Source: a virus. From it: a stretch of 28,157 nt of DNA. The notes under the pieces are model-generated. The model ran no database searches. It saw nothing but the letters and a program-made list of their open reading frames with translations, and was not told where the DNA came from. The DNA is taken from the IMG/VR virus record IMGVR_UViG_3300030103_003250, positions 1-28,157 of that record; one strand, written 5' to 3'. The position numbers and the translations under genes are program-made. Shown piece by piece: positions 2,169 through 18,195 of this stretch (position 1 is its first letter; each line of letters starts with the position of its first letter).

Positions 2169-3401
2169 ATGGGAAATTTATCAAAAGGTAGATACGCATT
2201 GTTTATTTCAGATCGATCAGGTCTAGCATATCCATATAGAGAAATGGTTAAAGAATGGAATGGTGCAAGAGTTCATACTTCTGAATACGAACCAAAGCAG
2301 CCTCAACTAGAACCTAAACCCTACACCGCTGATCCTCAAGGATTACCTCATCCAAGACCAGCAAGAACAGAATTTCCAACAACAGATTTTTTACCAAAAA
2401 ATCCATTTAGAACAACATCAAACTCAACTCAAGTTGTTGTAGACTTTCCATTTAGTGGATATCAAAATGGAGACTTTGTAAGATTCTCTGATGTAAAAAG
2501 TCCTGTAGGTGGAGTATCGATTTCTACTTTAGAATTAGAATCTTCTTTAGGAGGAAGTCTAAGTTCAACAGCTACTACAATTTCTCTAACCGATTCTTCT
2601 GCTTTTCCAAGCCAAGGTTATATTATAATTGAAAAAATAAATGCAGTTTCAGGTTTATTTGAAAATGAAACTATTTTTTATAATGGTAATGCAGGAAACG
2701 TTTTATCGAATTGTGTTCGAGGAACAGCTGCTCCTTTTAGAGGACAGACTCCCAAAAACACACCCGCAAGTGAACATGCAATTGGAGCCAAAGTATTTGG
2801 TGCTTATCCCATAACAATGGTTCCAACAGTGGTTCCACAAGCGGGACAACCTTCAACTCGTACAGAGTTTAACAGTTTTACTTTTAACCTAACCAGTAAT
2901 GCAAGTACCAGCGAAACAGGAGGCGGCTTTCAATGTTTAGCTGGACCCGTTAATAATAATTTTACTGAGTATAGAAGTGGAGTGTCGACTCCGGTTACTC
3001 CAACTCAAAATTATGCAGTCACTGTAGCCACAGGAACTTTATACATTGTAGGTGGAACAGGAAATGCTTTTTATCTTGATGGATCAAGAAACATGAGTTT
3101 ATCATTAGCTAAAAATACTGTAATTACATTTTCACAAGACAATAGCAATAATGATGGTCATCCTCTATTTATTACAACTTCTAATTCTACAAACCTTTCT
3201 ACTTTAAGAAGTGGAATAGTATCTTCGAATGTTGCTTACTATTTAGATGGTTCTAGTAATTCATCTGCTTACACCAACACAACAACTTTTAATGCTGCGT
3301 CGACAAGATATTTACAATGGACACCTTCTGTTGCAGGAACTTATTACTATGCGTGTTATATTCATGGAATAGGTATGGGAGGTATGATACAAATAACATA
3401 A
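2169..3401 (+). CDS. Modular neck/tail structural protein with C-terminal cupredoxin-like domain
   Basis: A 410-aa protein with three parts. Residues 1-80 form a conserved-looking head domain (KGRYALFISDRSGLAYPYRE, EYEPKQPQLEP) of a kind seen in marine phage structural proteins. Residues 128-211 are a beta module resembling the one inserted in the upstream adaptor (E.I.Y.G...L..C.RG...P). Residues 281-410 are cupredoxin-like: a His in DGHPLFIT (H331) and, near the C-terminus, YYYACYIHGIGMGG, supplying C396, H399 and M403. The order H...C-x2-H-x3-M is that of type-1 copper sites in plastocyanin-type proteins. There is no signal peptide, so copper would have to be loaded in the cytoplasm or after lysis. 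Copper binding is inferred; the fold may be only structural. The next gene starts within its stop codon. Confidence 0.65.
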   Translation: MGNLSKGRYALFISDRSGLAYPYREMVKEWNGARVHTSEYEPKQPQLEPKPYTADPQGLPHPRPARTEFPTTDFLPKNPFRTTSNSTQVVVDFPFSGYQNGDFVRFSDVKSPVGGVSISTLELESSLGGSLSSTATTISLTDSSAFPSQGYIIIEKINAVSGLFENETIFYNGNAGNVLSNCVRGTAAPFRGQTPKNTPASEHAIGAKVFGAYPITMVPTVVPQAGQPSTRTEFNSFTFNLTSNASTSETGGGFQCLAGPVNNNFTEYRSGVSTPVTPTQNYAVTVATGTLYIVGGTGNAFYLDGSRNMSLSLAKNTVITFSQDNSNNDGHPLFITTSNSTNLSTLRSGIVSSNVAYYLDGSSNSSAYTNTTTFNAASTRYLQWTPSVAGTYYYACYIHGIGMGGMIQIT

Positions 3402-4054
3402 TGACTTACACAGAATTAGTACAAAAAATTAAAGATTACACAGAAGTTGATTCAAATGTTTTTACATCAACTATAGTAAATGGTTTTATTGAAGACGCAG
3501 AATATAGAATATTCAGAGAAGTAGATTCAGACAATAATAGAAGATATGATACAGCAAATTTAATTGTTAATGATAGATTTATTGGCAGACCCGCAGGTTT
3601 ATTAATTGTAAGATCTGCACAAATTGTAGATTCTGACGGAAGTTCTCAACCAAATAATAGAGATTTTTTGCAGTATAGAGATACTAGTTTTATGTCAGAA
3701 TTTAATCCTACGGAAGTAACAGGAGTTCCAAAATATTACAGCTTATGGGATGAACAAAACATCGTAGTAGCTCCTACCCCTGATGCTACTTACACAATTC
3801 AATTAAATTATATCTTGAAAGAGCCTGGTTTATCTAGTACAAATGCAACTACATACATAAGTCAAAATTTTCCCAACGGTTTATTGTATGCGTGCCTAGT
3901 AGAAGCTTATGGCTTTTTAAAAGGACCCGTTGACATGCTCCAGTTATATGATAAAAAATACACTGAAGCCGTCAAAGGATTCTCAATTGAACAAATGGGA
4001 AGACGAAGACGAGATGAATATCAAGCAGGTGTTCCTCGAATAGGAAAACAATAA
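3401..4054 (+). CDS. Second head-tail adaptor / neck protein
   Basis: A 217-aa protein. The start is placed at 3401 (MTYTELVQKIKDY) because this ATG overlaps the preceding TAA by one base (TAATG), a junction used repeatedly here. The in-frame ATG at 3317 would give 84 bp of overlap with the cupredoxin domain. Features are an N-terminal helix pair (ELVQKIKDY; FIEDAEYRIFREVD), central beta strands around LLIVRSAQIV and KYYSLWDEQNIVVAPTP, and a C-terminal helix (LLYACLVEAYGFLKGP) with a basic tail. This pattern fits the phage adaptor family typified by the short-tailed SU10-like phages. It probably joins portal, adaptor and nozzle. Assignment is by pattern. Confidence 0.65.
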   Translation: MTYTELVQKIKDYTEVDSNVFTSTIVNGFIEDAEYRIFREVDSDNNRRYDTANLIVNDRFIGRPAGLLIVRSAQIVDSDGSSQPNNRDFLQYRDTSFMSEFNPTEVTGVPKYYSLWDEQNIVVAPTPDATYTIQLNYILKEPGLSSTNATTYISQNFPNGLLYACLVEAYGFLKGPVDMLQLYDKKYTEAVKGFSIEQMGRRRRDEYQAGVPRIGKQ

Positions 4055-7509: not shown

Positions 7510-8457
7510 ATGGCAAATGCAACTTCAGCTAATTTAAAATTAACAGTCCAAACAACCGGAGAAAACTCAGGAACTTGGGGACAATTTACTAACACTAACC
7601 TATTAATATTAGAGCAAGCCATTGGTGGCTATGCAGCTGAAGCATTAAATGCAACAACAGGTGCAACTTTACTTTTTTCAAATGGAGTTTTATCTAACGG
7701 TAAAAATCAAGTATTAAAACTAACAGGAACTATAACTACTAACGTTAATGTAATAATTCCTGATTCAATTGAAAAAACTTATATTGTAGAAAATGCAACA
7801 AGTGGTGCCTTTACAGTAACTTTTAAAACTTCTTCAGGGACTGGTTTTACTTTTGGAACAACAGAAAAAACTCATGCAATACTTTATTCTGATGGAACAA
7901 ATATTGTTGAAGTAATAAATAACACAAGTAATTTACAAGCTTTAGCTGACGTAGCTGTTACAGATGGAAATTTTATAGTAGGAAATGGAACTACTTTAGT
8001 AACAGAAAATGGATCAACAGCCAGAACTTCAATTGGTTTAGGAACTACAAATGATGTACAATTTGATTCTTTTGGAGTCGGAACTTCTGCTTCTGGAACA
8101 ACAGGAGAGATAAGAGCTACTAATGATGTCACTGCTTTCTATTCTTCAGATGTTGCACTCAAAGAAAATATTGTTAATATACCAGATCCATTAGAAGCCT
8201 TGAAAAAATTAAATGGAGTTTTATTTGATTGGAAAAAAGATTACTTAGATTCAAGAGGCGGAGAAGATGGCTATTTTGTTAGAAAAAAAGATGTTGGAGT
8301 TATAGCTCAAGAAGTAGAAAAAGTATTACCGGAAGCTGTGGCTCAAAGAAAAGATGGAATTAAAGCAGTAAAATATGATAGACTAACTTGTTTATTAATA
8401 GAAGCGGTAAAAAATTTATCGGAAAAAGTAGAAACTTTAAGTAAGGAGAAAAATTAA
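7510..8457 (+). CDS. Second, shorter tail fibre with S74 chaperone domain
   Basis: A 315-aa fibre. The N-terminal part (LKLTVQTTGENSGTWGQFTN at 9-28) is a phage fibre domain seen at the base of many marine-phage fibres. The middle (about 60-200) is beta-rich with a short shaft. The C-terminal S74 domain starts near residue 209 with AFYSSDVALKENI and contains GVIAQEVEKVLPEAV and a terminal coiled coil. The expected Ser-Lys pair is S213 and K218. Its C-terminal module is clearly paralogous to that of the fibre at 4519-6600, down to the lead-in RAT.DVTAFYSSD, while the N-terminal parts differ. Two S74 fibres imply two fibre trimers, or a fibre and a branch. A 45-bp gap with an AAGGAA ribosome site precedes it. 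Confidence 0.82.
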   Translation: MANATSANLKLTVQTTGENSGTWGQFTNTNLLILEQAIGGYAAEALNATTGATLLFSNGVLSNGKNQVLKLTGTITTNVNVIIPDSIEKTYIVENATSGAFTVTFKTSSGTGFTFGTTEKTHAILYSDGTNIVEVINNTSNLQALADVAVTDGNFIVGNGTTLVTENGSTARTSIGLGTTNDVQFDSFGVGTSASGTTGEIRATNDVTAFYSSDVALKENIVNIPDPLEALKKLNGVLFDWKKDYLDSRGGEDGYFVRKKDVGVIAQEVEKVLPEAVAQRKDGIKAVKYDRLTCLLIEAVKNLSEKVETLSKEKN

Positions 8458-8458
8458 T

Positions 8459-9514
8459 ATGGCTGTTCCAAGTACAAACGTAACACTTACAAGTATTCAA
8501 ACTGAATTTGGAGGATCTAATCCTATTCAATTATCTGAATATTATTCAGGTGGAAGTAACGTACCTGCAACATCACCCGCTCCTAATGGACCTATTCCAA
8601 GTTCAGGGCAAATTTCTGTAGGTCAATTTAGAGCTGCAGTAAAACAAGTTTCAGTTTCTGCTGATTATTTAATTATATCTGGTGGAGCTGGTGGAGCAGC
8701 GCCAAACGGCGGAGGCGGAGGAGCCGGCGGTATGAGATTTTCTAATTATGGTCCTTCCCCATTAAATACTGGCACAGCAATGACACTTGTAGGTGGAACT
8801 ACTTATCCTGTAGTGGTTGGTGCTGGCGGAAGTAATTCAGGTTATGTACCTTCTTTTACTGGTACTAGAGGATCAGATTCAATTTTTAACCCAGGCGGTT
8901 CTGAAGGAACTACTAAAATTACTACTGAAGGTGGTGGTTTTGATGTTCAACCCGATGGTCCTGATGCAGACGGAGGATCAGGTGCTGGACGTAATGGTTG
9001 GCATGGCAATCCTGGAGGCACAGGAAACACACCTCCTTTTAGTCCACCTCAAGGAAATGATGGTGGTTCTGCTGGACCACAAGCAGCAAGCGGTGGCGGT
9101 GGCGGAGCCTCAGCAGCTGGAAATGCAGGAGGCGGCGGTTCCGGAGGAAATGGCGGTGACGGAGTAGCTGTAAATATTACAGGTTCACCTGTAACTTATG
9201 CTGGAGGTGGCGGATCAGGAAGTGATTCCAGAGGATATAGTTCAAGACAGGGTTCTGGAGGTGCTGGCGGAGGCGGAAGCGGAAATGGCGGAGCTGGACA
9301 AGCAAACACCGGAGGCGGTGGAGGCGGCGGATTTTATAGCCCAGGTGGTGGCGCACAATCAGGAGCTGGTGGTTCTGGTAGAGTACAAATAAGAATACCG
9401 GCAGCAAATGCACCTTTAGTAAGTGTAACTCCTGGTACAAACAGTGTTGCGACTCACCCAGGTGGGGATAAAATAGCAACTTTTACAGTAAGTGGAAATT
9501 TAGTTTTAGCGTAA
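8459..9514 (+). CDS. Glycine-rich tail adhesin
   Basis: A 351-aa protein with a ribosome site AAGGAGA. The N-terminus (PSTNVTLTSIQTEFGG, then a QISVGQFR element near 51-57) is a small virion-attachment domain common in marine phages. From about residue 69 (DYLIISGGAGG) to 313 (GGSGRVQIRI) it is glycine-rich with repeated GGGG and GGGSGG runs, of the type forming polyglycine-II bundles in phage adhesins such as T-even gp38. The last 40 residues are an ordinary beta segment. It lies at the distal end of the fibre cluster, which fits a receptor-recognition tip. Such domains vary quickly and could set host range. Confidence 0.7.
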   Translation: MAVPSTNVTLTSIQTEFGGSNPIQLSEYYSGGSNVPATSPAPNGPIPSSGQISVGQFRAAVKQVSVSADYLIISGGAGGAAPNGGGGGAGGMRFSNYGPSPLNTGTAMTLVGGTTYPVVVGAGGSNSGYVPSFTGTRGSDSIFNPGGSEGTTKITTEGGGFDVQPDGPDADGGSGAGRNGWHGNPGGTGNTPPFSPPQGNDGGSAGPQAASGGGGGASAAGNAGGGGSGGNGGDGVAVNITGSPVTYAGGGGSGSDSRGYSSRQGSGGAGGGGSGNGGAGQANTGGGGGGGFYSPGGGAQSGAGGSGRVQIRIPAANAPLVSVTPGTNSVATHPGGDKIATFTVSGNLVLA

Positions 9515-9518
9515 TATT

Positions 9519-9905
9519 ATGGCACATTTTGCAGAATTAGATAGTAATAACAAAGTTATAAGAGTCGTTGTTGGAGACAACAATGATGTTGAGGCTAATG
9601 GTGGAGATCAATCTTTAACTGCAGCTCAACATTTTGAAACAGTAGTACCCTTTACTGAGAATGGTGTTAAGTGGGTTCAAACTTCTTACAATAGAAATTT
9701 TAGAAAAAACTTTGCTGGTATAGGTCATACTTATGACGAAACTAACGATAGATTTATCCCCGAACAACCTTTTCCTTCATGGTCATTAGATGGCGATGGA
9801 GATTGGCAACCACCATTTCAACCACCTGATCAAGATCAATATTATGAATGGGATGAAGATGCTTATCAAGCAGACAATACTCAAGGTTGGATACTAAGAG
9901 GTTAA
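9519..9905 (+). CDS. Conserved marine-phage protein of the fibre region
   Basis: A 128-aa protein recognisable by MAHFAELDSNNKVIRVVVGDN at the N-terminus and a centre with WVQTSYNRNFRKNFAGIGHTYD followed by F.PEQPFPSW. The end is acidic and rich in Trp, Pro and Asp. This family is common in cyanophages and pelagiphages, usually near fibre genes; its biochemical role is unknown to me. No signal peptide or membrane segment. Its stop codon overlaps by 4 bp with that of the oppositely oriented oxygenase gene, so it closes the first structural block. Confidence 0.65.
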   Translation: MAHFAELDSNNKVIRVVVGDNNDVEANGGDQSLTAAQHFETVVPFTENGVKWVQTSYNRNFRKNFAGIGHTYDETNDRFIPEQPFPSWSLDGDGDWQPPFQPPDQDQYYEWDEDAYQADNTQGWILRG

Positions 9906-10408
9906 ATATTTTCGTACCAAGAGGGTATGGTATATCTTTTACCTTTCTTAACTTCTAAGACCCCGTGCATATTTGTTTCATTACTTTTAAATAAAATGCA
10001 ACTTAAAGCTTTCATCTTGAAGGTTTGATTTTCAAAAAACAATTCTCCACCTTCATAGTTATCATTTAAATAAATTAATGACGAAAAATCCATAAGGTTA
10101 TTTACTTCTTCCGCTCTATCATTGTGAAAAACCATGCTGTCTTTTGGTAGCCAACGACATAATCTCATGTGTTGCCAAGACTTAGTTTTAGTTTTAAATA
10201 AATGATCTATAAAATAAATATTCTTGTAAGCATAATAATTTAATAAATCTTTTGCTTTGCCTTTTTTTATATGGGGAAGATGTATATTTCTATGACGATG
10301 TTCTTCTCTGTCATCGTAACAAAGATGTGTATTTTTATCAAAGAAAGACATTAACATTTTTGCATCTTTTTTATCGATAAAGTTTTCTATTATATGTCTA
10401 ACAGTCAT
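9902..10408 (-). CDS. 2OG-Fe(II) dioxygenase, prolyl-4-hydroxylase-like (array member 6)
   Basis: A 168-aa protein and the last gene of the minus-strand array. It has the double-stranded beta-helix signature: iron ligands H95 and D97 (FHNDR), the YEGGELFF strand at 118-125, distal iron ligand H148 (NMHGV) and R158 ten residues later for the 2-oxoglutarate carboxylate. It has about 90 residues before the HxD motif and no extra domains. The start overlaps the upstream gene by 11 bp. Family enzymes hydroxylate proteins, small molecules or nucleic acids using O2 and 2-oxoglutarate; the substrate here is unknown. The complete metal and co-substrate set argues for an active enzyme. Confidence 0.82.
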   Translation of the reverse strand: MTVRHIIENFIDKKDAKMLMSFFDKNTHLCYDDREEHRHRNIHLPHIKKGKAKDLLNYYAYKNIYFIDHLFKTKTKSWQHMRLCRWLPKDSMVFHNDRAEEVNNLMDFSSLIYLNDNYEGGELFFENQTFKMKALSCILFKSNETNMHGVLEVKKGKRYTIPSWYENI

Positions 10409-10952
10409 ATATCCTATCTAAAAACTTATATTTAGCAGTGACTTTATTTATAAATATAACTAGTCTTAATGTTTCTAAATCTGTAAACTCGGTAACACCA
10501 TGAAATTTATTGGCATCATAAAGTAATAAACTATTAAAGTTATTAGAAACAACTACTTGTTTTTTTAAATCTTTATTATAAATAGTCGTGCCAGATTTTT
10601 CACAAATTGTTTTATTTAAATATATAACACCTGCAATTTCAACTCTGTTATCTTTGTGTATATGTGTTTCTTTTCTTTTCCATTTTTTAAAATCAGAAGG
10701 TTTAGTTTTATGAAATTGAATGGAAGCACTTTCCCAGAAAACCTGTTGTAATCTATATTCATAATAAACAGAGATTATCTTATTCATTATAAAACTATGT
10801 AGCTCTGGATTTATTTTATGAAAAGACTCTGACCTAACACCAGGCCAATTTTCATCATCTTTAGCTCTAGACCATTTTACTTTTTTTAAAAAATCGAAAA
10901 TTAATTTAGTATCCTTAAAAAAATTTTCAACAACTATAGTTGGATAAATCAT
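10398..10952 (-). CDS. 2OG-Fe(II) dioxygenase, DUF6445-like (array member 5)
   Basis: A 184-aa protein. Its N-terminal part contains NWPGVRSESF (35-44), reminiscent of the DUF6445 oxygenase group. Catalytic elements are H99 and D101 (HIHKDN), AGVIYLN, GTTIY, then H151 (KFHGV) and R163. The Arg is 12 residues after the distal His, slightly longer than in its neighbours, and the usual GGE strand is replaced by SGTTIY. Its start overlaps the preceding gene by 4 bp (ATGA), implying translational coupling. Substrate unknown; related marine-phage and bacterial proteins are mostly uncharacterised. Confidence 0.78.
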   Translation of the reverse strand: MIYPTIVVENFFKDTKLIFDFLKKVKWSRAKDDENWPGVRSESFHKINPELHSFIMNKIISVYYEYRLQQVFWESASIQFHKTKPSDFKKWKRKETHIHKDNRVEIAGVIYLNKTICEKSGTTIYNKDLKKQVVVSNNFNSLLLYDANKFHGVTEFTDLETLRLVIFINKVTAKYKFLDRIYDC

Positions 10953-11611
10953 TTAGGTCTTTTAAATTCACCTGGTAAACCTAAGTGGGGTCTTCCATCA
11001 AATAAATTTTTATCGGATCCTTTAGAAGCAGCATTATTGTAATGTAGAAATACTTGTATGCATTCTTCTCCTTCAAAAGGTTCTCTCCAATGTTCTAATT
11101 CATTACCTCTGTAGATTAACATATCACCAGGGTGTAAAGTAATTTTTTTACCTTTAGGTGCATTAGGTTTGATAAGATTCTTTTGTTCATCAATAACAAA
11201 ATCTTTACCCGTAGGATCTAAATATATTGGCCAAGGTTCTCCACCTAAATTAAGTGTAGTAGATATCTCACAACTAAATCTATCTTTGTGTCTTTTTAGA
11301 ATATCTCCTTTTTTGTATATTCTTCCGTAAGAATAATTAGGAGTAAGCTTTAAACCTGTTTTTTTCTGCATTAAAGGAAGTAATTCAACAAGTAAAACTT
11401 CCATTACTAGGTCAGCATAACAAGAGTAAGTATTTGGCACCTGACCATCTTCCCATGTTCCATACATAGAATCATAAGGAGATATAAATCTTTCTGTAAA
11501 TAAAGTGTTTGCAACCTGTCTTTTAAAAGTAAAATATCTTTTACAAAAATAAGCCATTGGTTCACTTAAAGCTTTTTTAATTACTTGGTATTTATTTTTT
11601 TTAAAACTCAT
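10949..11611 (-). CDS. 2OG-Fe(II) dioxygenase, cyanophage-type (array member 4)
   Basis: A 220-aa protein, the longest of the array. The metal site is visible as H108 and D110 (KRHKDRFSCEISTTLNLGG) and H174 (ELEHWREPF), preceded by LHPGDMLIYRG, a typical strand before the distal His. Unlike the other five members, no Arg lies about ten residues after the distal His; that stretch reads EGEECIQVFLH. The 2-oxoglutarate carboxylate must be bound differently or the cofactor pocket has changed. Its own ribosome site (GGAAAGGAA) in a 12-bp gap makes it the only internal gene not overlapped by its upstream neighbour. The type is familiar from cyanophage genomes, but the substrate is unknown. Confidence 0.78.
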   Translation of the reverse strand: MSFKKNKYQVIKKALSEPMAYFCKRYFTFKRQVANTLFTERFISPYDSMYGTWEDGQVPNTYSCYADLVMEVLLVELLPLMQKKTGLKLTPNYSYGRIYKKGDILKRHKDRFSCEISTTLNLGGEPWPIYLDPTGKDFVIDEQKNLIKPNAPKGKKITLHPGDMLIYRGNELEHWREPFEGEECIQVFLHYNNAASKGSDKNLFDGRPHLGLPGEFKRPK

Positions 11612-11623
11612 TTGTTCCTTTCC

Positions 11624-12193
11624 TTAAATAAATTTAGGTCCTTTTAAAAATAGTGTTAAACTGTTTCTCTCTCCTTTAGTTACAGGAGAAACTTTATGAT
11701 GTATAAAAGATCTAAACATTAACATAGAGCCAGGTTTATTAAATTGTGGTATACTAAACTCATCACCCATAAACATTGAAAAATCACCCCCTTTGTAGGA
11801 TTCGGTAGATAAATTTATTAAGACTGTTAACTTTATATCATAACTACTATTTACGACTCGATCACAATGCCAATTGTAGCTAGCCTGTTTACTTGAATTA
11901 TAAATATTAAAATTTAAAAAATCATATGAATTTTTAGGAAAAAGATTAAATCCAAAATGATAACTGTTTATTGCATACGCTCTATCTACTACATGATCTA
12001 ATTTATTTGCTAATTTAGAATAAAGTATCTGTTTACAATTTAGATTTTTTTTAGATTTACCCATAACATCTGTAGCTTCTAGATTTTTTGGTTCAATCTG
12101 GTCATATTTAGAGTTTATAGTTTTTACTAAAGATTTAATTTCAGCAGGTGAAAAAACTTTATCCCAAAACCAATAATTATTTTGTGCACTCAT
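11624..12193 (-). CDS. 2OG-Fe(II) dioxygenase, PKHD-like (array member 3)
   Basis: A 189-aa protein with H109 and D111 (YNWHCDR), the YKGGDFSMF strand (133-141), H166 (SFIHHKVSPV) and R176 (GERNSL). The distal block aligns closely with that of the neighbouring gene at 12193-12819 (SF.WH.V.PV.KG.RNSL), so these two are the most similar pair in the array. No signal peptide; probably cytosolic. It starts inside the stop of the previous gene (TAATG, one-base overlap). Substrate unknown; protein or peptide hydroxylation is typical of PKHD-type enzymes. Confidence 0.84.
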   Translation of the reverse strand: MSAQNNYWFWDKVFSPAEIKSLVKTINSKYDQIEPKNLEATDVMGKSKKNLNCKQILYSKLANKLDHVVDRAYAINSYHFGFNLFPKNSYDFLNFNIYNSSKQASYNWHCDRVVNSSYDIKLTVLINLSTESYKGGDFSMFMGDEFSIPQFNKPGSMLMFRSFIHHKVSPVTKGERNSLTLFLKGPKFI

Positions 12194-12819
12194 TATTTAA
12201 AAGGCCATCCTAAATTCCAAATCACTAAAGAGTTTCTTATTCCTTTTTTTACAGGACATACCCTATGCCAAACAAAAGAAGGAAATACCACAATGGAACC
12301 CCTAGGTAATATTTCTAAACATTTTTGAATATTTTTATTTTTACTTACAGTGGGTTTATTAAAATTAAATTCTAGTTCGCCACCTTTGTATTCATCAGGA
12401 TCAGTCAAAGAACAAGTTACAGATAATTTTCTAATTTTACCGTGTTCAATATCATTGGGTTTATTGTAAGGTCTAACATCAGAATCACAATGCCAATCAT
12501 AAAATTGTCCTGGTTTGTATGTAGTAAATTGGCAAGACTGCATATAGTCCCATTCATAATTCCAACCAGCTTCTTTATTTGCTCTATGTATGTAAGGTCT
12601 TATTTCTTTATATATCCATTCATCATTCAACCATACTACTTGTGATTTTCTAACTTTCTGTAAATTTTTTAATTCTTTTTTAGAAATAAATTTTTTATTA
12701 GTGTAGGTACCTGTAAGAGCAATTTGTTGTTGTTGACTTTTACCATATCTAATAAGGTCATCACAGAACCTTGGAGTTAAAGCTGACTTAAAATAATAAT
12801 AATAATTGTGTAACAACAT
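12193..12819 (-). CDS. 2OG-Fe(II) dioxygenase, PKHD-type (array member 2)
   Basis: A 208-aa protein with the most canonical motifs of the set: H110 and D112 (FYDWHCDSD), KLSVTCSLTD, YKGGELEFNF (144-153), LPRGSIVVFPSFVWHRV with H185, and R195 (GIRNSL). It ends shortly after in NLGWPFK. N-terminal helices (about 1-90) are typical of PKHD/PiuC-like hydroxylases. Coupled to its upstream neighbour by a one-base TAATG overlap. It and member 3 look like an old duplication that has diverged strongly outside the active site. Confidence 0.86.
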   Translation of the reverse strand: MLLHNYYYYFKSALTPRFCDDLIRYGKSQQQQIALTGTYTNKKFISKKELKNLQKVRKSQVVWLNDEWIYKEIRPYIHRANKEAGWNYEWDYMQSCQFTTYKPGQFYDWHCDSDVRPYNKPNDIEHGKIRKLSVTCSLTDPDEYKGGELEFNFNKPTVSKNKNIQKCLEILPRGSIVVFPSFVWHRVCPVKKGIRNSLVIWNLGWPFK

Positions 12820-13307
12820 TACTTTATATAATTAAAGTTTATAGCTACTCTTACATTTTGATCCGTGCAACTAGTCCCTGTGTGACTTTCACCACAATCA
12901 AATTCTATATATTTATTCTCTTCACTTTTAACAATTTTTTTATTTTTAAATTTAGTATATCCATCGTTAGTATTTACATATAATATACCTGTAGTTATCT
13001 TCTCATAATTATCATAGTCTGTATGATAACCATGCTCAATATGATTGTCCGTTTTAGTTATAAGATTAGCTTTAACTCTTAAAAGACTTAAAGGATTTAT
13101 TTTATCTAATACAGGTTTTATCAATCTAAAGTAATTAGAATTAATTACATCGTTAGCGTAGAAACAATGGGTGAACTGAAATACACCAACAGCATCTTTT
13201 TCTGTATTTACCCCTTGATTATAGTACCAAGAAAAATCAGCGCTCATTAGATTATCTTGTAACACTTTAAATTGATCTTTCGGCAATAAATTTTTATATA
13301 CTTTCAT
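12819..13307 (-). CDS. 2OG-Fe(II) dioxygenase, marine-phage type (array member 1)
   Basis: A 162-aa protein and first gene of the minus-strand operon. Visible site: H95 and D97 (EHGYHTDYD), TGILYVNTNDGYTKF (106-120), H142 (GESHTG) and R153 (NVRVAINFNY). The NTNDGYT strand is characteristic of a 2OG oxygenase subgroup found in marine phages. It lacks the GGE motif of the PKHD members, so the array contains several subfamilies, not one recently amplified gene. There is no Shine-Dalgarno before the ATG, and the candidate promoter would leave only a few leader bases. Substrate unknown. Confidence 0.8.
   Translation of the reverse strand: MKVYKNLLPKDQFKVLQDNLMSADFSWYYNQGVNTEKDAVGVFQFTHCFYANDVINSNYFRLIKPVLDKINPLSLLRVKANLITKTDNHIEHGYHTDYDNYEKITTGILYVNTNDGYTKFKNKKIVKSEENKYIEFDCGESHTGTSCTDQNVRVAINFNYIK
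13272..13300 (+). promoter_or_regulatory. Candidate plus-strand promoter inside the first oxygenase gene
   Basis: TTGATC (13272-13277) and TATATA (13295-13300) are 17 bp apart; an overlapping TATACT at 13297-13302 is a better -10 with 19-bp spacing. It would give a leader of about 40 nt for the gene at 13349 and restart transcription of the nozzle block after the inverted cassette. Evidence is sequence likeness only, in AT-rich DNA. Confidence 0.3.
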
Positions 13308-13319
13308 GATAAAAAGTTT

Positions 13320-13347
13320 ATCTTAATTAAATTAAAAAAATTGTCAA
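13320..13347 (-). promoter_or_regulatory. Candidate promoter for the oxygenase operon
   Basis: Read on the minus strand, a perfect TTGACA (13347-13342) is followed after 16 bp by TAAGAT (13325-13320), matching 4 of 6 at the -10. The predicted start would be about 6 nt before the ATG at 13307, so the message would be nearly leaderless, which agrees with the absence of a Shine-Dalgarno. Confidence 0.45.
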
Positions 13348-13348
13348 T

Positions 13349-13681
13349 ATGAGTATTTTAGAGGATTTTTCCAAACATCTAGATTCTATTGAATTTCCTT
13401 CAGAAAAAACTTCTTGGAATATAGCAGGAGTTATAAAAGGACAAAATGGTTTTTATAAATTTGATGTAAGAAATATGTTTCAACTTAATCCAAAAGAAAA
13501 AGCTCAAAATGGTAAAGTCACCAGTAAGGCAGATAAGATGGTTTTAGATATAAAAAATCAATACATAATCATAGATTTAGAAGAGCTTCATGGGTATTTA
13601 AAACAAAATGACCTTAAAAAAGTATATGTAGATGATTTGATATCTAGTTTAGATTGGAATATTATACTACCAAAAAATTAA
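13349..13681 (+). CDS. Hypothetical protein between oxygenase array and nozzle
   Basis: A 110-aa soluble protein, Lys/Asp-rich. It begins MSILEDFSKHLDSIEFPSE, has a central IAGVIKGQNGFYKFDVRNM, then VLDIKNQYIIIDLEELHGYL and a hydrophobic LDWNIILPK ending. No motif I recognise, no signal or membrane segment, and no Shine-Dalgarno before the ATG. It is divergent from the oxygenase operon across 41 bp and is followed after 22 bp by the nozzle gene. Good reading-frame integrity and A/T-rich codon use like its neighbours support it as a real gene. Its place at the edge of the inserted cassette could make it part of that cargo or a small regulator; neither can be shown. Confidence 0.55.
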   Translation: MSILEDFSKHLDSIEFPSEKTSWNIAGVIKGQNGFYKFDVRNMFQLNPKEKAQNGKVTSKADKMVLDIKNQYIIIDLEELHGYLKQNDLKKVYVDDLISSLDWNIILPKN

Positions 13682-13703: not shown

Positions 13704-15626
13704 ATGCTTCAAAAACTTAATTTTAAACCAGGATTTGACAAACAAGTCACAGAATCAGGAGCTGAGTCTATGTGGACAGACGGAGATTTTGTTAGATTTA
13801 GGTATGGACTGCCTGAAAAAATAGGTGGTTGGAGTCAACTAACTACTAATAACAAAACTTTGCCAGGAGTAGCAAGAGCACAACATGCTTTTAGTAGTAT
13901 TGCCGGTGAAAAATATGTAGCAATTGGTACGTCTCAAGGTTTATTTTTATACTATAACGAAGAATTTTTTGACATCACTCCTTTAGATGATGATGTTATT
14001 ACAGGAGCTACCTTTGATGCATCGACGGGTTCTCCAACAGTTACTGTAAATAAAGTATCTCATGGATTACAAAATGGTAGATACGTAAAATTTAGTTCAG
14101 TCACAGTTCCAACAGGATCAGGTTATGCTATAGCTGATTTTACAGACAATACTTTTGAAGTATTAAATAAATCTAATAATACCTTTCAAATTACAATGCC
14201 TTCTAATTCAGCTGGAACTACATCCGGCACTGGTTCTGCACAAATTGATCCGTATGAAATTGTTGGTCCTACTTTTCAAACTGCTGGTTTAGGTTGGGGT
14301 ACATCTACGTGGGGATCAAGCACATGGGGAACGGCAAGCTCAACAAGTAATGTAATTCTAGATCCAGGTATTTGGAGTTTAGACAACTTTGGTCAAATAT
14401 TAATTGCTACAATAAATAACGGTAAAACATTTACTTGGAATGCAGGAGCTGTAAGTCCAAGAAGTACACGAGCAACAGTAATGACAGGTGCTCCTACCAA
14501 ATCAAGATTAACTCAAGTATCCGATAGAGATAGACATGTGTTTCATTTTGGAACTGAAACAACTATTGGTGACTCAACAACTCAAGATCCAATGTTTATA
14601 AGATTCTCTAATCAAGAAGATTTTAATACCTATCAGCCAACATCTACCAATACTGCAGGTACTTTTAGAGTGGATAAAGGTAATGAAATTATGGGAGCTA
14701 TTTCAGGTAAAGATTATACATTAGTTTTAACAGATACGTCTGCATATGTAATTCAATTCGTTGGTCCACCATTTACTTTTTCTGTAAGACAAGTTGGCAC
14801 TAACTGTGGATTGATTGGACAGAACGCAATAAGTTATTCTGACGGTAAAGTATTTTGGATGTCAGGCGAAGGTGGTTTTTTTGTTTTTGATGGTACTGTA
14901 AAAAGTATACCTTGTTTAGTAGAAGACTTTGTATTTACAACTAATGGAGATCATTTAGGAATTAACTATAGTTCAAATCAATTAGTATATGCAGAACATA
15001 ATTCTTTGTATACAGAGATTAACTGGTTCTATCCTAAAGCAGGTTCTTCTCAAATAGATAGATGTGTTACTTATAATTACACAGAAAATTTATGGACTAC
15101 AAGTTCGTTAGCCAGAACTAGTTACATAGATCAAGGTGTTTTTGATTTACCTTTTGCTACTGAATATAATAAAACAGCGCTACCTAATTTTCCTATACAG
15201 GGTATTACAGCAACGTATGGAGCATCTACATACTACGAACATGAAAAAGGAGTGGATCAAATTAACAGTTCAGGTACAACGTCAATTGATGCATTTATAC
15301 AATCTGGAGATTTTGATATAACTAATACTAACAACATAGCTAATCTAGCTGGAGATGGAGAATTTATTATGTCAGTTAAAAGATTTATTCCAGACTTTCA
15401 ACTGTTAGAAGGTAATTCTAAAATTACTTTGCTTATAAATGATTATCCTAACAACACTGCCTCTAGTTCACCTCTTGGACCATTTACCGTTACTTCAACT
15501 ACAGACAAAGTAAATACGCGGGCACGAGGAAGATTAGTAGCACTTAAAATAGAAAACGATGCAGTCGGAGAAACTTGGCGTTATGGAACTTTTAGATTAG
15601 ATGCAAAACCAGATGGAAGAAGATAA
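13704..15626 (+). CDS. Tail nozzle / hub protein, P22 gp10-like
   Basis: A 640-aa beta-rich protein. The opening MLQKLNFKPGFDKQVTESGA, then MWTDGDFVRFRYGLPEKIGGW, is the hallmark of a large marine and enterobacterial phage family of nozzle/tail-hub proteins that close the short tail and retain packaged DNA. The middle has propeller-like motifs (RDRHVFHFG; GKVFWMSGEGGFFVFDG). An extra domain at about 105-180 (SHGLQNGRYVKFS, then NNTFQITMP) is a mobile beta module also seen in other phage structural proteins. A second beta domain lies near the C-terminus. No Shine-Dalgarno is evident. It follows the adaptors in function but is displaced from them by fibres and the oxygenase cassette. Confidence 0.75.
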   Translation: MLQKLNFKPGFDKQVTESGAESMWTDGDFVRFRYGLPEKIGGWSQLTTNNKTLPGVARAQHAFSSIAGEKYVAIGTSQGLFLYYNEEFFDITPLDDDVITGATFDASTGSPTVTVNKVSHGLQNGRYVKFSSVTVPTGSGYAIADFTDNTFEVLNKSNNTFQITMPSNSAGTTSGTGSAQIDPYEIVGPTFQTAGLGWGTSTWGSSTWGTASSTSNVILDPGIWSLDNFGQILIATINNGKTFTWNAGAVSPRSTRATVMTGAPTKSRLTQVSDRDRHVFHFGTETTIGDSTTQDPMFIRFSNQEDFNTYQPTSTNTAGTFRVDKGNEIMGAISGKDYTLVLTDTSAYVIQFVGPPFTFSVRQVGTNCGLIGQNAISYSDGKVFWMSGEGGFFVFDGTVKSIPCLVEDFVFTTNGDHLGINYSSNQLVYAEHNSLYTEINWFYPKAGSSQIDRCVTYNYTENLWTTSSLARTSYIDQGVFDLPFATEYNKTALPNFPIQGITATYGASTYYEHEKGVDQINSSGTTSIDAFIQSGDFDITNTNNIANLAGDGEFIMSVKRFIPDFQLLEGNSKITLLINDYPNNTASSSPLGPFTVTSTTDKVNTRARGRLVALKIENDAVGETWRYGTFRLDAKPDGRR

Positions 15627-16137: not shown

Positions 16138-16354
16138 TATATTAAAAATTGATTGTACAACAACAATAGTTCTAAGAAATACTAGAACTAATAAAGTATA
16201 TAAAGATGAATCAGAGAAAGATGCCGATATAGCTGATCCTAACACTGAGACAGTTGCAGATCATATTGCACAAGATCTTACAGTGGTAGTATCACCGAAA
16301 GGTTTAAACATGTTACAGAAAGCAATGAATGATAATAAGAAATCAAACACCTAA
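16130..16354 (+). CDS. 74-aa conserved marine-phage protein
   Basis: A small soluble protein beginning MDDILKIDCTTTIVLRNTRT, with a KVYKDESEKDADIADPNTET segment, then DHIAQDLTVVVSPKGL and a basic tail. The pattern of a strand, K-V-Y, an acidic helix, D.NT.T, HI.QD..V.V is one I associate with many marine phages, always without a known function. It overlaps the upstream gene by 8 bp and the glycosyltransferase by 26 bp. Such long overlap suggests co-translation. A virion or accessory protein is the best guess. Confidence 0.6.
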   Translation: MDDILKIDCTTTIVLRNTRTNKVYKDESEKDADIADPNTETVADHIAQDLTVVVSPKGLNMLQKAMNDNKKSNT

Positions 16355-17276
16355 AGGTGGAACTGAATTACAATTAGAATTTTTAAATAAATACGTAGAT
16401 AAAAAATTATTAGATCAAGTTCAAATCTGTACTTCTATACCAGGTAAAATTCCACTAGATCCTAACAAAGTAAATATACTTTGGCAAAAAAATTCATACG
16501 ACCAACCTAATTTATATCCTTGGTTTAAAAATAAAGCTAATCATCATAGATACGATTGGTATGTATTTAATAGTCATTGGAACCATGAAAAATTTAGAAT
16601 GATGTTTGGTCTACCTACTGAAAAATGTATAGTCATTAAAAATGGTATAGAGAAAATAGAACAATCAAAACCTTATGTAAAAGGACAACCTATAAAAATA
16701 ATACATCAAAATACTCCTTGGAGAGGTTTATCTGTTTTACTAGGTGCAATGCAGTTAATTAAAAACCCATTAATTACTTTAGATGTATATTCTTCTTGTG
16801 AAGTTTATGGCAAAGATTTTATGGAAAAAAATGACCATAATTATAAAGCACTTTATGATCAAGCAGAGTCTTTACCTAATGTAAATTACATTGGTTATAA
16901 GTCTAATGAGTACCTTAGAGAAAATATAAAAAATTATAATATGTATGTATATCCAAGTATATTTGAAGAAACTTCATGTATATCTTTACTAGAAGCAATG
17001 TCAGCGGGACTTTACAGCATTGTGACAAACTATGGAGCTCTATTTGAAACAGGCGCAGAATTTCCAATGTACATTCCGTATGACAGTGACTACAAAGCTT
17101 TATCTGAAAAATTTGCTTATGGAATTGACGCTGCTGCTCAAACACTTCATGAAAAAGTAATACAAGATCATTTAACTACTCAATCTAACTATGCTCAGTT
17201 TTATTATTCTTGGAATAAACAAGCTACCTCATGGACTAGATTTTTACAGGGAGCAATTAATGTCAAAGCCAAATGA
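16329..17276 (+). CDS. Glycosyltransferase, GT4-like (GT-B fold)
   Basis: A 315-aa enzyme. The N-terminal GG loop (TPKGGTELQ at 7-15) is right at the start, so the ATG at 16329 is supported even though it overlaps the previous gene. An NG motif (VIKNGIEKI near 102-110) precedes the C-terminal Rossmann domain, which contains YPSIFEETSCISLLEAMSAG with the nucleotide-sugar E-x7-E pair E214 and E222. The N-terminal domain is short compared with bacterial GT4 enzymes (usually 350 aa or more). It likely transfers a sugar from a nucleotide donor; the acceptor could be virion protein, host surface glycan or modified DNA. Coupled to the GT-A gene downstream (17-bp overlap). Confidence 0.75.
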   Translation: MIIRNQTPKGGTELQLEFLNKYVDKKLLDQVQICTSIPGKIPLDPNKVNILWQKNSYDQPNLYPWFKNKANHHRYDWYVFNSHWNHEKFRMMFGLPTEKCIVIKNGIEKIEQSKPYVKGQPIKIIHQNTPWRGLSVLLGAMQLIKNPLITLDVYSSCEVYGKDFMEKNDHNYKALYDQAESLPNVNYIGYKSNEYLRENIKNYNMYVYPSIFEETSCISLLEAMSAGLYSIVTNYGALFETGAEFPMYIPYDSDYKALSEKFAYGIDAAAQTLHEKVIQDHLTTQSNYAQFYYSWNKQATSWTRFLQGAINVKAK

Positions 17277-18195
17277 ACCAATATGGTTTAATACAGATAA
17301 AGCAGTAACGCCTAACGAAGATACTTATCAAACAATTAAAACTAATAAAGTAGATTCAGAAAATGTTACAGAAATAAATATAGGAGAACAATCTCCTTAT
17401 AGAGTAATGGTATGTACTCCATGTCATAGTGATGTTAGTATGCATTATTGTCAAGCTGTTTTAAAATTTCAACAAGCATGTTGGGCTAAAAAAATACAAG
17501 TTAGTTTTACATTATTGAAATCATCTCTCGTTACACAAGGTAGAAATTTATGTGTTGCTGAGATGTTAAGTCATGAAGATAACTATACCCATCTTTTATT
17601 TATTGATTCTGATATTGATTTTAACTCTGAAACTATTTTTAAAATGTTAGATTTTGACAAAGATATAATTAGTGTTCCTTACCCTATGAAAATACTGAGT
17701 TGGGATAAAATATGGAGAAGACTTAATTTAAAAGAAAATGCAGTTACTAACGCTAATGATTTAGCTAAAGCGGGTTTTACCTTTCCAGTTAAAATAGAGG
17801 ATCCTAATTCAATAACCGTGGACCGAGGACTTATGGAGATAACTCATGCACCTACTGGATGTATGTTAATTAAAAGAGAAGTGTTTGAAAAAATGATTAA
17901 AGAATATCCTCATTTAGAAATATTTCAACCAACCAATATTAATGGTAAAGAAGAGAAAAAAGATAATATGTACAATTTATTTGATACACTTCATGACCCT
18001 GTTACTAAACGTTACTTTGGAGAAGACTTTGGATTCTGTCAAAGGTGGGTAGATATAGGAGGTAAGGTGTACGCCTATATAAATGAGTACATAACACATG
18101 TAGGAGAATACTCTTATTGTGGTCGTTTTAGAGATGATTTAGAACAAGCAACAAAGCCTGTCAAAGCAGTTGACGAGTCTAAAAAAATCAAATAA
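17260..18195 (+). CDS. Glycosyltransferase-like protein, GT-A type, marine-phage family
   Basis: A 311-aa protein. The start at 17260 is preferred because a GGGAG ribosome site lies 6 nt upstream; the in-frame ATG at 17191 would lengthen the overlap with the GT4 gene. After a 48-residue lead, RVMVCTPCHSDVSMHYC begins a GT-A-like domain. The DxD motif is HLLFIDSDIDF (D116, D118), preceded by SLVTQGRNLCVAEML. Later elements are APTGCMLIKREVF, GEDFGFCQRW (catalytic-type acidic residues near 255-256) and a late metal-type His in THVGEY (H280). Phage proteins of this type are usually annotated as glycosyltransferases without known substrate. Together with the GT4 gene it suggests a two-step glycan. 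Confidence 0.72.
   Translation: MSKPNEPIWFNTDKAVTPNEDTYQTIKTNKVDSENVTEINIGEQSPYRVMVCTPCHSDVSMHYCQAVLKFQQACWAKKIQVSFTLLKSSLVTQGRNLCVAEMLSHEDNYTHLLFIDSDIDFNSETIFKMLDFDKDIISVPYPMKILSWDKIWRRLNLKENAVTNANDLAKAGFTFPVKIEDPNSITVDRGLMEITHAPTGCMLIKREVFEKMIKEYPHLEIFQPTNINGKEEKKDNMYNLFDTLHDPVTKRYFGEDFGFCQRWVDIGGKVYAYINEYITHVGEYSYCGRFRDDLEQATKPVKAVDESKKIK

Follow-up and report, generated by a model that had tools for sequence, protein, structure and literature searches.

Six divergent 2-oxoglutarate oxygenase-type genes at the tail locus of a pelagiphage: a swappable cassette that may hydroxylate neighboring tail proteins

Why would a virus keep six different oxygenases side by side among the genes for its own particle? 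The question is raised by the IMG/VR virus record IMGVR_UViG_3300030103_003250, of which positions 1 to 28,157 (hereafter the window, a stretch of 28,157 nucleotides) were analyzed. Here, six consecutive minus-strand genes, named P1–P6, each appear to encode a 2-oxoglutarate (2OG)/Fe(II) oxygenase-type protein. We propose that they form a swappable cassette of protein or peptide hydroxylases acting on the neighboring tail proteins, an assignment of the substrate that we hold with about as much confidence as doubt. Marine phages carry few auxiliary genes more often than those for 2OG oxygenases, and relatives of this virus infect the ocean's most abundant bacteria.

The array spans six open reading frames (ORFs) at positions 9902–13307, transcribed in the order P6, P5, P4, P3, P2, P1. 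Neighboring genes overlap by 11 (P1/P2), 4 (P2/P3), 1 (P4/P5), and 1 bp (P5/P6), and P3 and P4 are separated by a 12-bp gap. An earlier sequence-only reading had listed these genes, their overlaps, the gap, and the ligand residues, and had placed them as one operon inside the virion module. We confirmed the former to the base and residue and the latter by the gene neighbors. It had further claimed that all six are 2OG oxygenases of at least three subfamilies, five of them with the 2OG-binding arginine, that they did not arise by recent amplification, and that selection retains them. As detailed below, each of these claims held.

All six proteins carry the iron ligands HxD...H, which are 92–100% conserved in the family alignments (the P1 alignment comprising three near-identical sequences only). 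However, the motif alone is weak evidence, because a loose HxD/E...H was found in 261 of 1214 (21%) unrelated ORFs of similar size. Chance matches as the source of the enzyme call were rejected on profile and fold evidence, which decides the matter. The Pfam family PF13640 is above the cut-off for P1, P4, and P5 and below it for P2 (E value 2e-4) and P6, whereas DUF6445 exceeds the cut-off for P2, and P3 shows no Pfam match at all. P1 and P4 additionally show weak similarity to Oxygenase-NA. In the PHROGs database, all six fall into marine-phage families.

Given the motif background, P3 and P6 were modeled with AlphaFold from alignments of viral relatives (35 and 15 sequences, respectively), followed by Foldseek searches. 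Both models (predicted local distance difference test, pLDDT, of 86.9 for P3 and 91.2 for P6) assume the 2OG-oxygenase fold. This fold check had been proposed in the sequence-only reading. The 50 best PDB fold matches of P3 are 2OG oxygenases, among them Pseudomonas putida P4H, PHD2, and HygX, and those of P6 are mostly PHD2-type prolyl hydroxylases. The template modeling (TM) scores of these matches are moderate (about 0.4–0.7), so that both assignments stand at the level of the fold; searching PDB sequences with the P3 and P6 profiles returned nothing useful. P. putida P4H, PHD2, and the PKHD-type PiuC share the fold and the iron triad, but identity to P3 and P6 is about 10–16%, and their substrates are not transferable. 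P2 is placed in the class by its sub-threshold PF13640 match together with profile-profile similarity to P6 (hidden Markov model comparison, probability 96). A first P2 profile had drifted into the P6 family, and clean profiles were used for the final profile comparison and for conservation. This comparison separates three remote groups, {P1, P4, P5}, {P2, P6}, and {P3}, with P3 tied to the others by fold and motif only.

The distal arginine expected to bind 2OG is present in five of the proteins, whereas P3 carries Gln-186 at the usual position, 9–12 residues past the distal histidine. Nearly every viral or bacterial relative of P3 retains this glutamine. Some 2OG enzymes supply the 2OG-binding residue from elsewhere. 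Taken together, it is near certain that all six are 2OG-Fe(II)-oxygenase-type proteins, and they are presumably catalytic.

The complete six-gene set recurs in unchanged order in two viral contigs: L325, whose copy is identical or almost identical, and L326 (93–99% amino acid identity). Contigs L327 and L001/L332 carry at least five of the six genes plus a sixth truncated at the contig end. This recurrence in viral contigs that are independent of one another rules out an artifact of assembly. For each of the six genes, the ratio of nonsynonymous to synonymous substitution rates (dN/dS) relative to relatives is mostly 0.03–0.2, which excludes pseudogene decay; as judged by this ratio, all six are kept by purifying selection. 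The 41-bp gap ahead of P6 contains a predicted sigma70-type element. Between its −10 box and the P6 start codon lie 12 nt, so that the leader would be very short. The TTGACA of this element is conserved in 9 of 10 related environmental arrays with a variable spacer and is absent upstream of the arrays in L250 and HTVC027P. In all likelihood, the six genes are expressed as one unit from this promoter of their own.

The 640-residue virion protein beside the array shares 67% identity with its counterpart in HTVC027P and 57% with that in HTVC023P, and the neighboring gene order is shared as well. These likenesses mark the window, 28 kb in length, as part of an HTVC023P-type pelagiphage genome. The array lies within the virion/tail module on the strand opposite to the virion genes. 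Of 186 loci that contain phrog_3287, the backbone virion gene, 165 carry 2OG genes no more than eight genes upstream of it, and 38 of these include opposite-strand members; the loci were retrieved with these very genes as queries, and the counts are not population frequencies. Because varying 2OG genes occupy this place in 165 of 186 loci, we regard the site as a replaceable slot beside the tail-fiber genes. Three relatives illustrate this. HTVC027P carries three minus-strand 2OG genes at the very site of the window, and HTVC023P and 023Pt_psg01 carry three and four, respectively, on the plus strand upstream of the phrog_3287 gene. In contrast to the window, these arrays comprise three or four adjacent genes and other members.

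A survey of arrays, for which family membership was widened with the help of clustering, HHalign, Pfam, and PHROGs, demonstrates that sets of 3–9 such genes are common at the HTVC023P-type tail-fiber locus and in T4-like phages, where they lie between the tail-fiber and neck/terminase genes. Among the closest counterparts are Mosig EXVC030M (genes 55–60) and HTVC008M (gp68–72), with six and five consecutive minus-strand 2OG genes, respectively, near tail-fiber and neck genes. Both share P5- and P3-type members with the window, in P5-before-P3 order, and Mosig also a P6-type member. However, both are T4-like myoviruses, and their remaining members are of phrog_81/Oxy5 and related types rather than P1, P2, or P4. 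Directly after the Mosig array follow genes 53–54 (L090:3651-4887), annotated as phycocyanobilin:ferredoxin oxidoreductase and heme oxygenase.

In the cyanophages S-RSM4 (132–142) and S-SM1 (051–061), nine of eleven genes encode oxygenases, and P1-, P5-, P6-, and P3-type members are represented; the S-RSM4 array sits between tail-fiber and head-neck genes. These arrays differ from that of the window in their larger size, in being broken by two unrelated genes, and in their cyanobacterial hosts. Both arrays enclose a gene from one family without an assigned function (L088:7941-8642 and L087:11317-12018), the S-SM1 copy of which falls into phrog_33749. Environmental contigs reach nine consecutive 2OG genes (L285, L308). 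S-SCSM1 has been reported with 24 2OG genes genome-wide (PMC9602691), and eight non-orthologous 2OG types are co-located in HTVC023P-type phages (PMC9599517). The sequence-only reading had called a pure tandem of six exceptional and suggested a neighborhood survey for other large arrays; this survey retrieved equal or larger sets in published phages and environmental contigs. Six in a row is therefore not exceptional, and such arrays are common and partly published.

What recurs among these arrays is an order. Across 139 dereplicated clusters of at least three 2OG genes, a P5/P4-type gene precedes the P3-type gene in 115 of 115 clusters and the phrog_81-type gene in 85 of 94. P3-type genes have a P5/P4-type gene upstream in 214 cases and lack one in 7. 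Most often, a P5-type gene is followed by a phrog_81-type and then a P3-type gene; the window has P6 ahead, P4 in the middle slot between P5 and P3, and P2 and P1 at the end. The fixed order owes something to shared descent, yet it spans T4-like myoviruses and podovirus-like pelagiphages. In a tree of the P1/P4/P5 class, built by a quick method that leaves the deep forks open, P5 groups with pelagiphage P5 genes, P4 forms its own fully supported clade, and P1 falls elsewhere; the clades of P4 and P5 both include relatives in other phages. Tree and identities rule out recent local duplication, and by the same data the array was put together from old lineages. P4-like 2OG genes also occur apart from tail arrays, in the clamp-loader/RegA region of HTVC008M (gp117, L338:2480-3040) and Mosig (gene 8, L337:2495-3064).

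Two of the families bear database names that conceal this relationship. P3-type proteins are called "ferrochelatase" (phrog_2954) and P6-type proteins "DNA endonuclease V" (phrog_274). No ferrochelatase was found among the 35 relatives of P3, among PDB sequence matches at E ≤ 1, or among its 50 best PDB folds, and we rejected this identity. The 50 best viral fold matches of P3 include one S-SM1 protein named ferrochelatase, which is a member of P3's own family. Likewise, T4 endonuclease V (DenV) is absent from the PDB sequence matches of P6 at E ≤ 1 and from its 50 best PDB folds, and that identity was rejected as well. Because several members carry such wrong names, 2OG arrays have been undercounted.

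The ferrochelatase name has entered two published ecological inferences. In one study, P3-type genes are called ferrochelatases, and the 2OG genes are said to be "not adjacent" and to have ferrochelatases as partners (PMC9599517); in the other, published in ISME J, a headline result takes phrog2954 as ferrochelatase (PMC11561400). Both, the latter in its abstract, count ferrochelatase and 2OG oxygenase as distinct co-occurring functions, and moving phrog_2954 to the 2OG oxygenases alters how their claims on viral heme and iron metabolism are to be read. If P3-type proteins are 2OG oxygenases, the "partner" belongs to the array itself, which explains why a 2OG gene always adjoins the "ferrochelatase." A further "ferrochelatase" profile, phrog_3531 (362 positions), spans one half of P3 type and another of canonical 2OG type, which suggests that fused P3-2OG proteins exist in some phages.

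How might such a cassette work? One operon would supply six non-redundant hydroxylase-type enzymes that depend on 2OG, Fe(II), and O2. By comparison with other phages, it is the local form of an accessory cassette, found at the tail-fiber locus of HTVC023P-type pelagiphages and at similar places in T4-like marine phages, in which a core of a P5-type, a third, and a P3-type enzyme keeps its order and other oxygenase genes are gained, lost, or swapped. The enzymes would hydroxylate side chains of tail and virion proteins encoded by adjacent genes, above all the Gly-rich protein and the tail fibers (Table 1), and different enzymes may act on different residues or segments. The hydroxyls could alter adhesin stability or receptor-binding chemistry or accept sugars from a nearby glycosyltransferase; such glycosylation after hydroxylation is conceivable. 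P3 and P5 may share a target, acting in succession or as a pair, because of their gene order, their near-obligate linkage, and the fused family phrog_3531. The sequence-only reading had offered successive oxidations or a set of virion-protein targets as possible reasons for keeping the six genes together.

Several observations point to such substrates. The families flanking the arrays are phrog_7759, the Gly-rich tail family phrog_2295, and tail fiber/collar proteins. After correction for backbone divergence, array make-up tracks the tail-side genes (partial Mantel r 0.23, p 0.010), but genes beyond the opposite end of the array show no such relation (r −0.20, p 0.97). Bacterial relatives of P3, found at 62 genome loci of which some are probably phage contigs, share its invariant residues. 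At two Mucilaginibacter loci and one Methylomonas locus, the P3 relative lies beside an Asn-synthase gene and a canonical 2OG gene, and the best NCBIfam match of these Asn-synthase genes, below the cut-off, is lasso-peptide cyclase. A second 2OG gene is present in 14 of the 49 bacterial-type P3 loci. A lasso-peptide 2OG hydroxylase, CanE, has been described (PMC8498205). The many prolyl hydroxylases among the nearest solved folds of P3 and P6 also count for protein or peptide substrates. On location, tail-side covariation, and the bacterial context of P3, we lean towards substrates of this kind encoded near the array.

Other observations weigh against this view. The Mantel signal is weak, comes from a single test, and can be produced by physical linkage. 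Only 5 of the 49 bacterial-type P3 loci contain an Asn-synthase-like gene. The operon is antisense with a host-type promoter, which leaves late co-expression with the tail genes uncertain. In P3, the customary 2OG-binding arginine is missing, and the nearest isolate relatives of P4 lie in the replication module of T4-like pelagiphages. The tail and virion proteins of the window contain no collagen-like repeats or long Gly-X-Y runs, and collagen-like substrates were rejected on this ground. Literature searches found no experimental precedent for phage tail hydroxylation, and we found no phage member of these 2OG families with a demonstrated substrate.

The same host-type promoter permits early expression and hence targets in the host, such as translation factors or ribosomal proteins hydroxylated during takeover. 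The top fold match of P3, a Pseudomonas P4H, has also been solved in complex with EF-Tu, and the ribosomal oxygenases NO66 and MINA53 match the P3 fold as well. However, the array site is tied to tail genes, and conserved host targets would not explain a make-up that varies among relatives and tracks the tail-side genes; we consider host targets unlikely. The glutamine of P3 bears on another possibility, namely that some members are non-catalytic relatives of the fold retained as binding or assembly factors, and some array members elsewhere indeed lack a clear HxD/E...H match. Set against this, the HxD...H ligands are invariant or nearly so in each family, the bacterial P3 relatives included, which makes loss of catalysis quite improbable.

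Modification of phage DNA or nucleotides, or repair of alkylated DNA, appears very unlikely. 2OG enzymes can act on DNA, repair has been suggested for cyanophages (PMC3037559), and both the weak Oxygenase-NA similarity of P1 and P4 and the P4 relatives in replication modules would fit. However, none of the six matches the TET/JBP or AlkB families, the array is located at the tail locus, and the fold lends no support to calling the P6 family "endonuclease V." Tailoring of a small phage-encoded peptide (a ribosomally synthesized and post-translationally modified peptide-like product) rather than of large virion proteins would agree with the lasso-cyclase-like genes beside bacterial P3 relatives, but we identified neither a cyclase nor a protease nor a precursor-like partner in the window, where small ORFs were not examined in depth, and we judge this similarly remote. 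Least probable is a metabolic effect proposed for cyanophages (PMC3037559; PMC9602691), in which draining 2OG or making succinate shifts host nitrogen signaling or energy, since a drain needs no six divergent enzymes in conserved order, and enzymes that diverged while under purifying selection would each be expected to have a prime substrate of their own.

Hydroxylation of neighboring tail proteins may reach beyond this virus. Tentatively, and with somewhat more doubt than confidence, we suggest that marine phages from unrelated families have in common a modular cassette for hydroxylation, which is exchanged horizontally, sits at the tail locus, and is organized around an ordered P5-X-P3 core. 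Combinatorial tail-protein hydroxyls would then diversify host recognition, and the "viral ferrochelatase" of ocean surveys would be one of the cassette's enzymes, unrelated to heme. The array offers a bounded experiment in cultured pelagiphages. What the analysis adds is a corrected identity for the families called "ferrochelatase" and "endonuclease V," a promoter that is conserved, and a testable model of tail hydroxylation; the fixed core order and the bacterial P3 relatives are new.

Table 1. The oxygenase array and its immediate neighbors in the window
Feature	Position	Strand	Length	Family and remarks
Tail-fiber-type protein	7510..8457	+		phrog_8215
Gly-rich tail-associated protein	8459..9514	+		28% Gly; phrog_2295 family (median 31% Gly); favored candidate substrate
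phrog_7759 protein	9519..9905	+		Function not assigned; convergent with P1; commonest neighbor of such arrays
P1	9902..10408	−	168 aa	Last operon gene; 2OG-FeII_Oxy_3 (PF13640; phrog_2297 "DNA endonuclease"); H95, D97, H148, R158
P2	10398..10952	−	184 aa	DUF6445/phrog_1644 ("minor coat protein"), sub-threshold PF13640; H99, D101, H151, R163
P3	10949..11611	−	220 aa	2OG oxygenase fold, without Pfam match; phrog_2954; H108, D110, H174, Gln186
P4	11624..12193	−	189 aa	2OG-FeII_Oxy_3 (PF13640); H109, D111, H166, R176; middle slot, elsewhere usually phrog_81 type
P5	12193..12819	−	208 aa	2OG-FeII_Oxy_3 (PF13640), PKHD/PiuC-like; H110, D112, H185, R195; core partner of P3-type genes
P6	12819..13307	−	162 aa	First operon gene; 2OG oxygenase fold; phrog_274; H95, D97, H142, R153
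Candidate operon promoter	13320..13347	−		TTGACA-N16-TAAGAT; ends just ahead of P6 start codon
110-residue protein	13349..13681	+	110 aa	Function not assigned; separates the array from the backbone gene; transcribed divergently from P6
Backbone virion gene	13704..15626	+		phrog_3287 ("stabilization protein" in relatives); site marker

Just upstream of many arrays lies a family of 167–172 residues with 65 members, for example HTVC023P gp64 (L083:8549-9052) and L085:10208-10711. It has no Pfam or PHROG match and reaches HHalign probabilities of 57–72 to the P6 profile; it is possibly a further divergent 2OG member or a cupin. A few of its members entered the array counts through their profile match, which may have raised the counts for L111, L284, and L299 by one each.

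Two gene overlaps lie elsewhere in the window. About 3 kb from the array, a glycosyltransferase gene (16329–17276) overlaps a phrog_1574 gene (17191–18195) by 86 bp. The virion genes at 2169–3401 and 3317–4054 overlap by 85 bp in different frames, and the start of the second may be further in.

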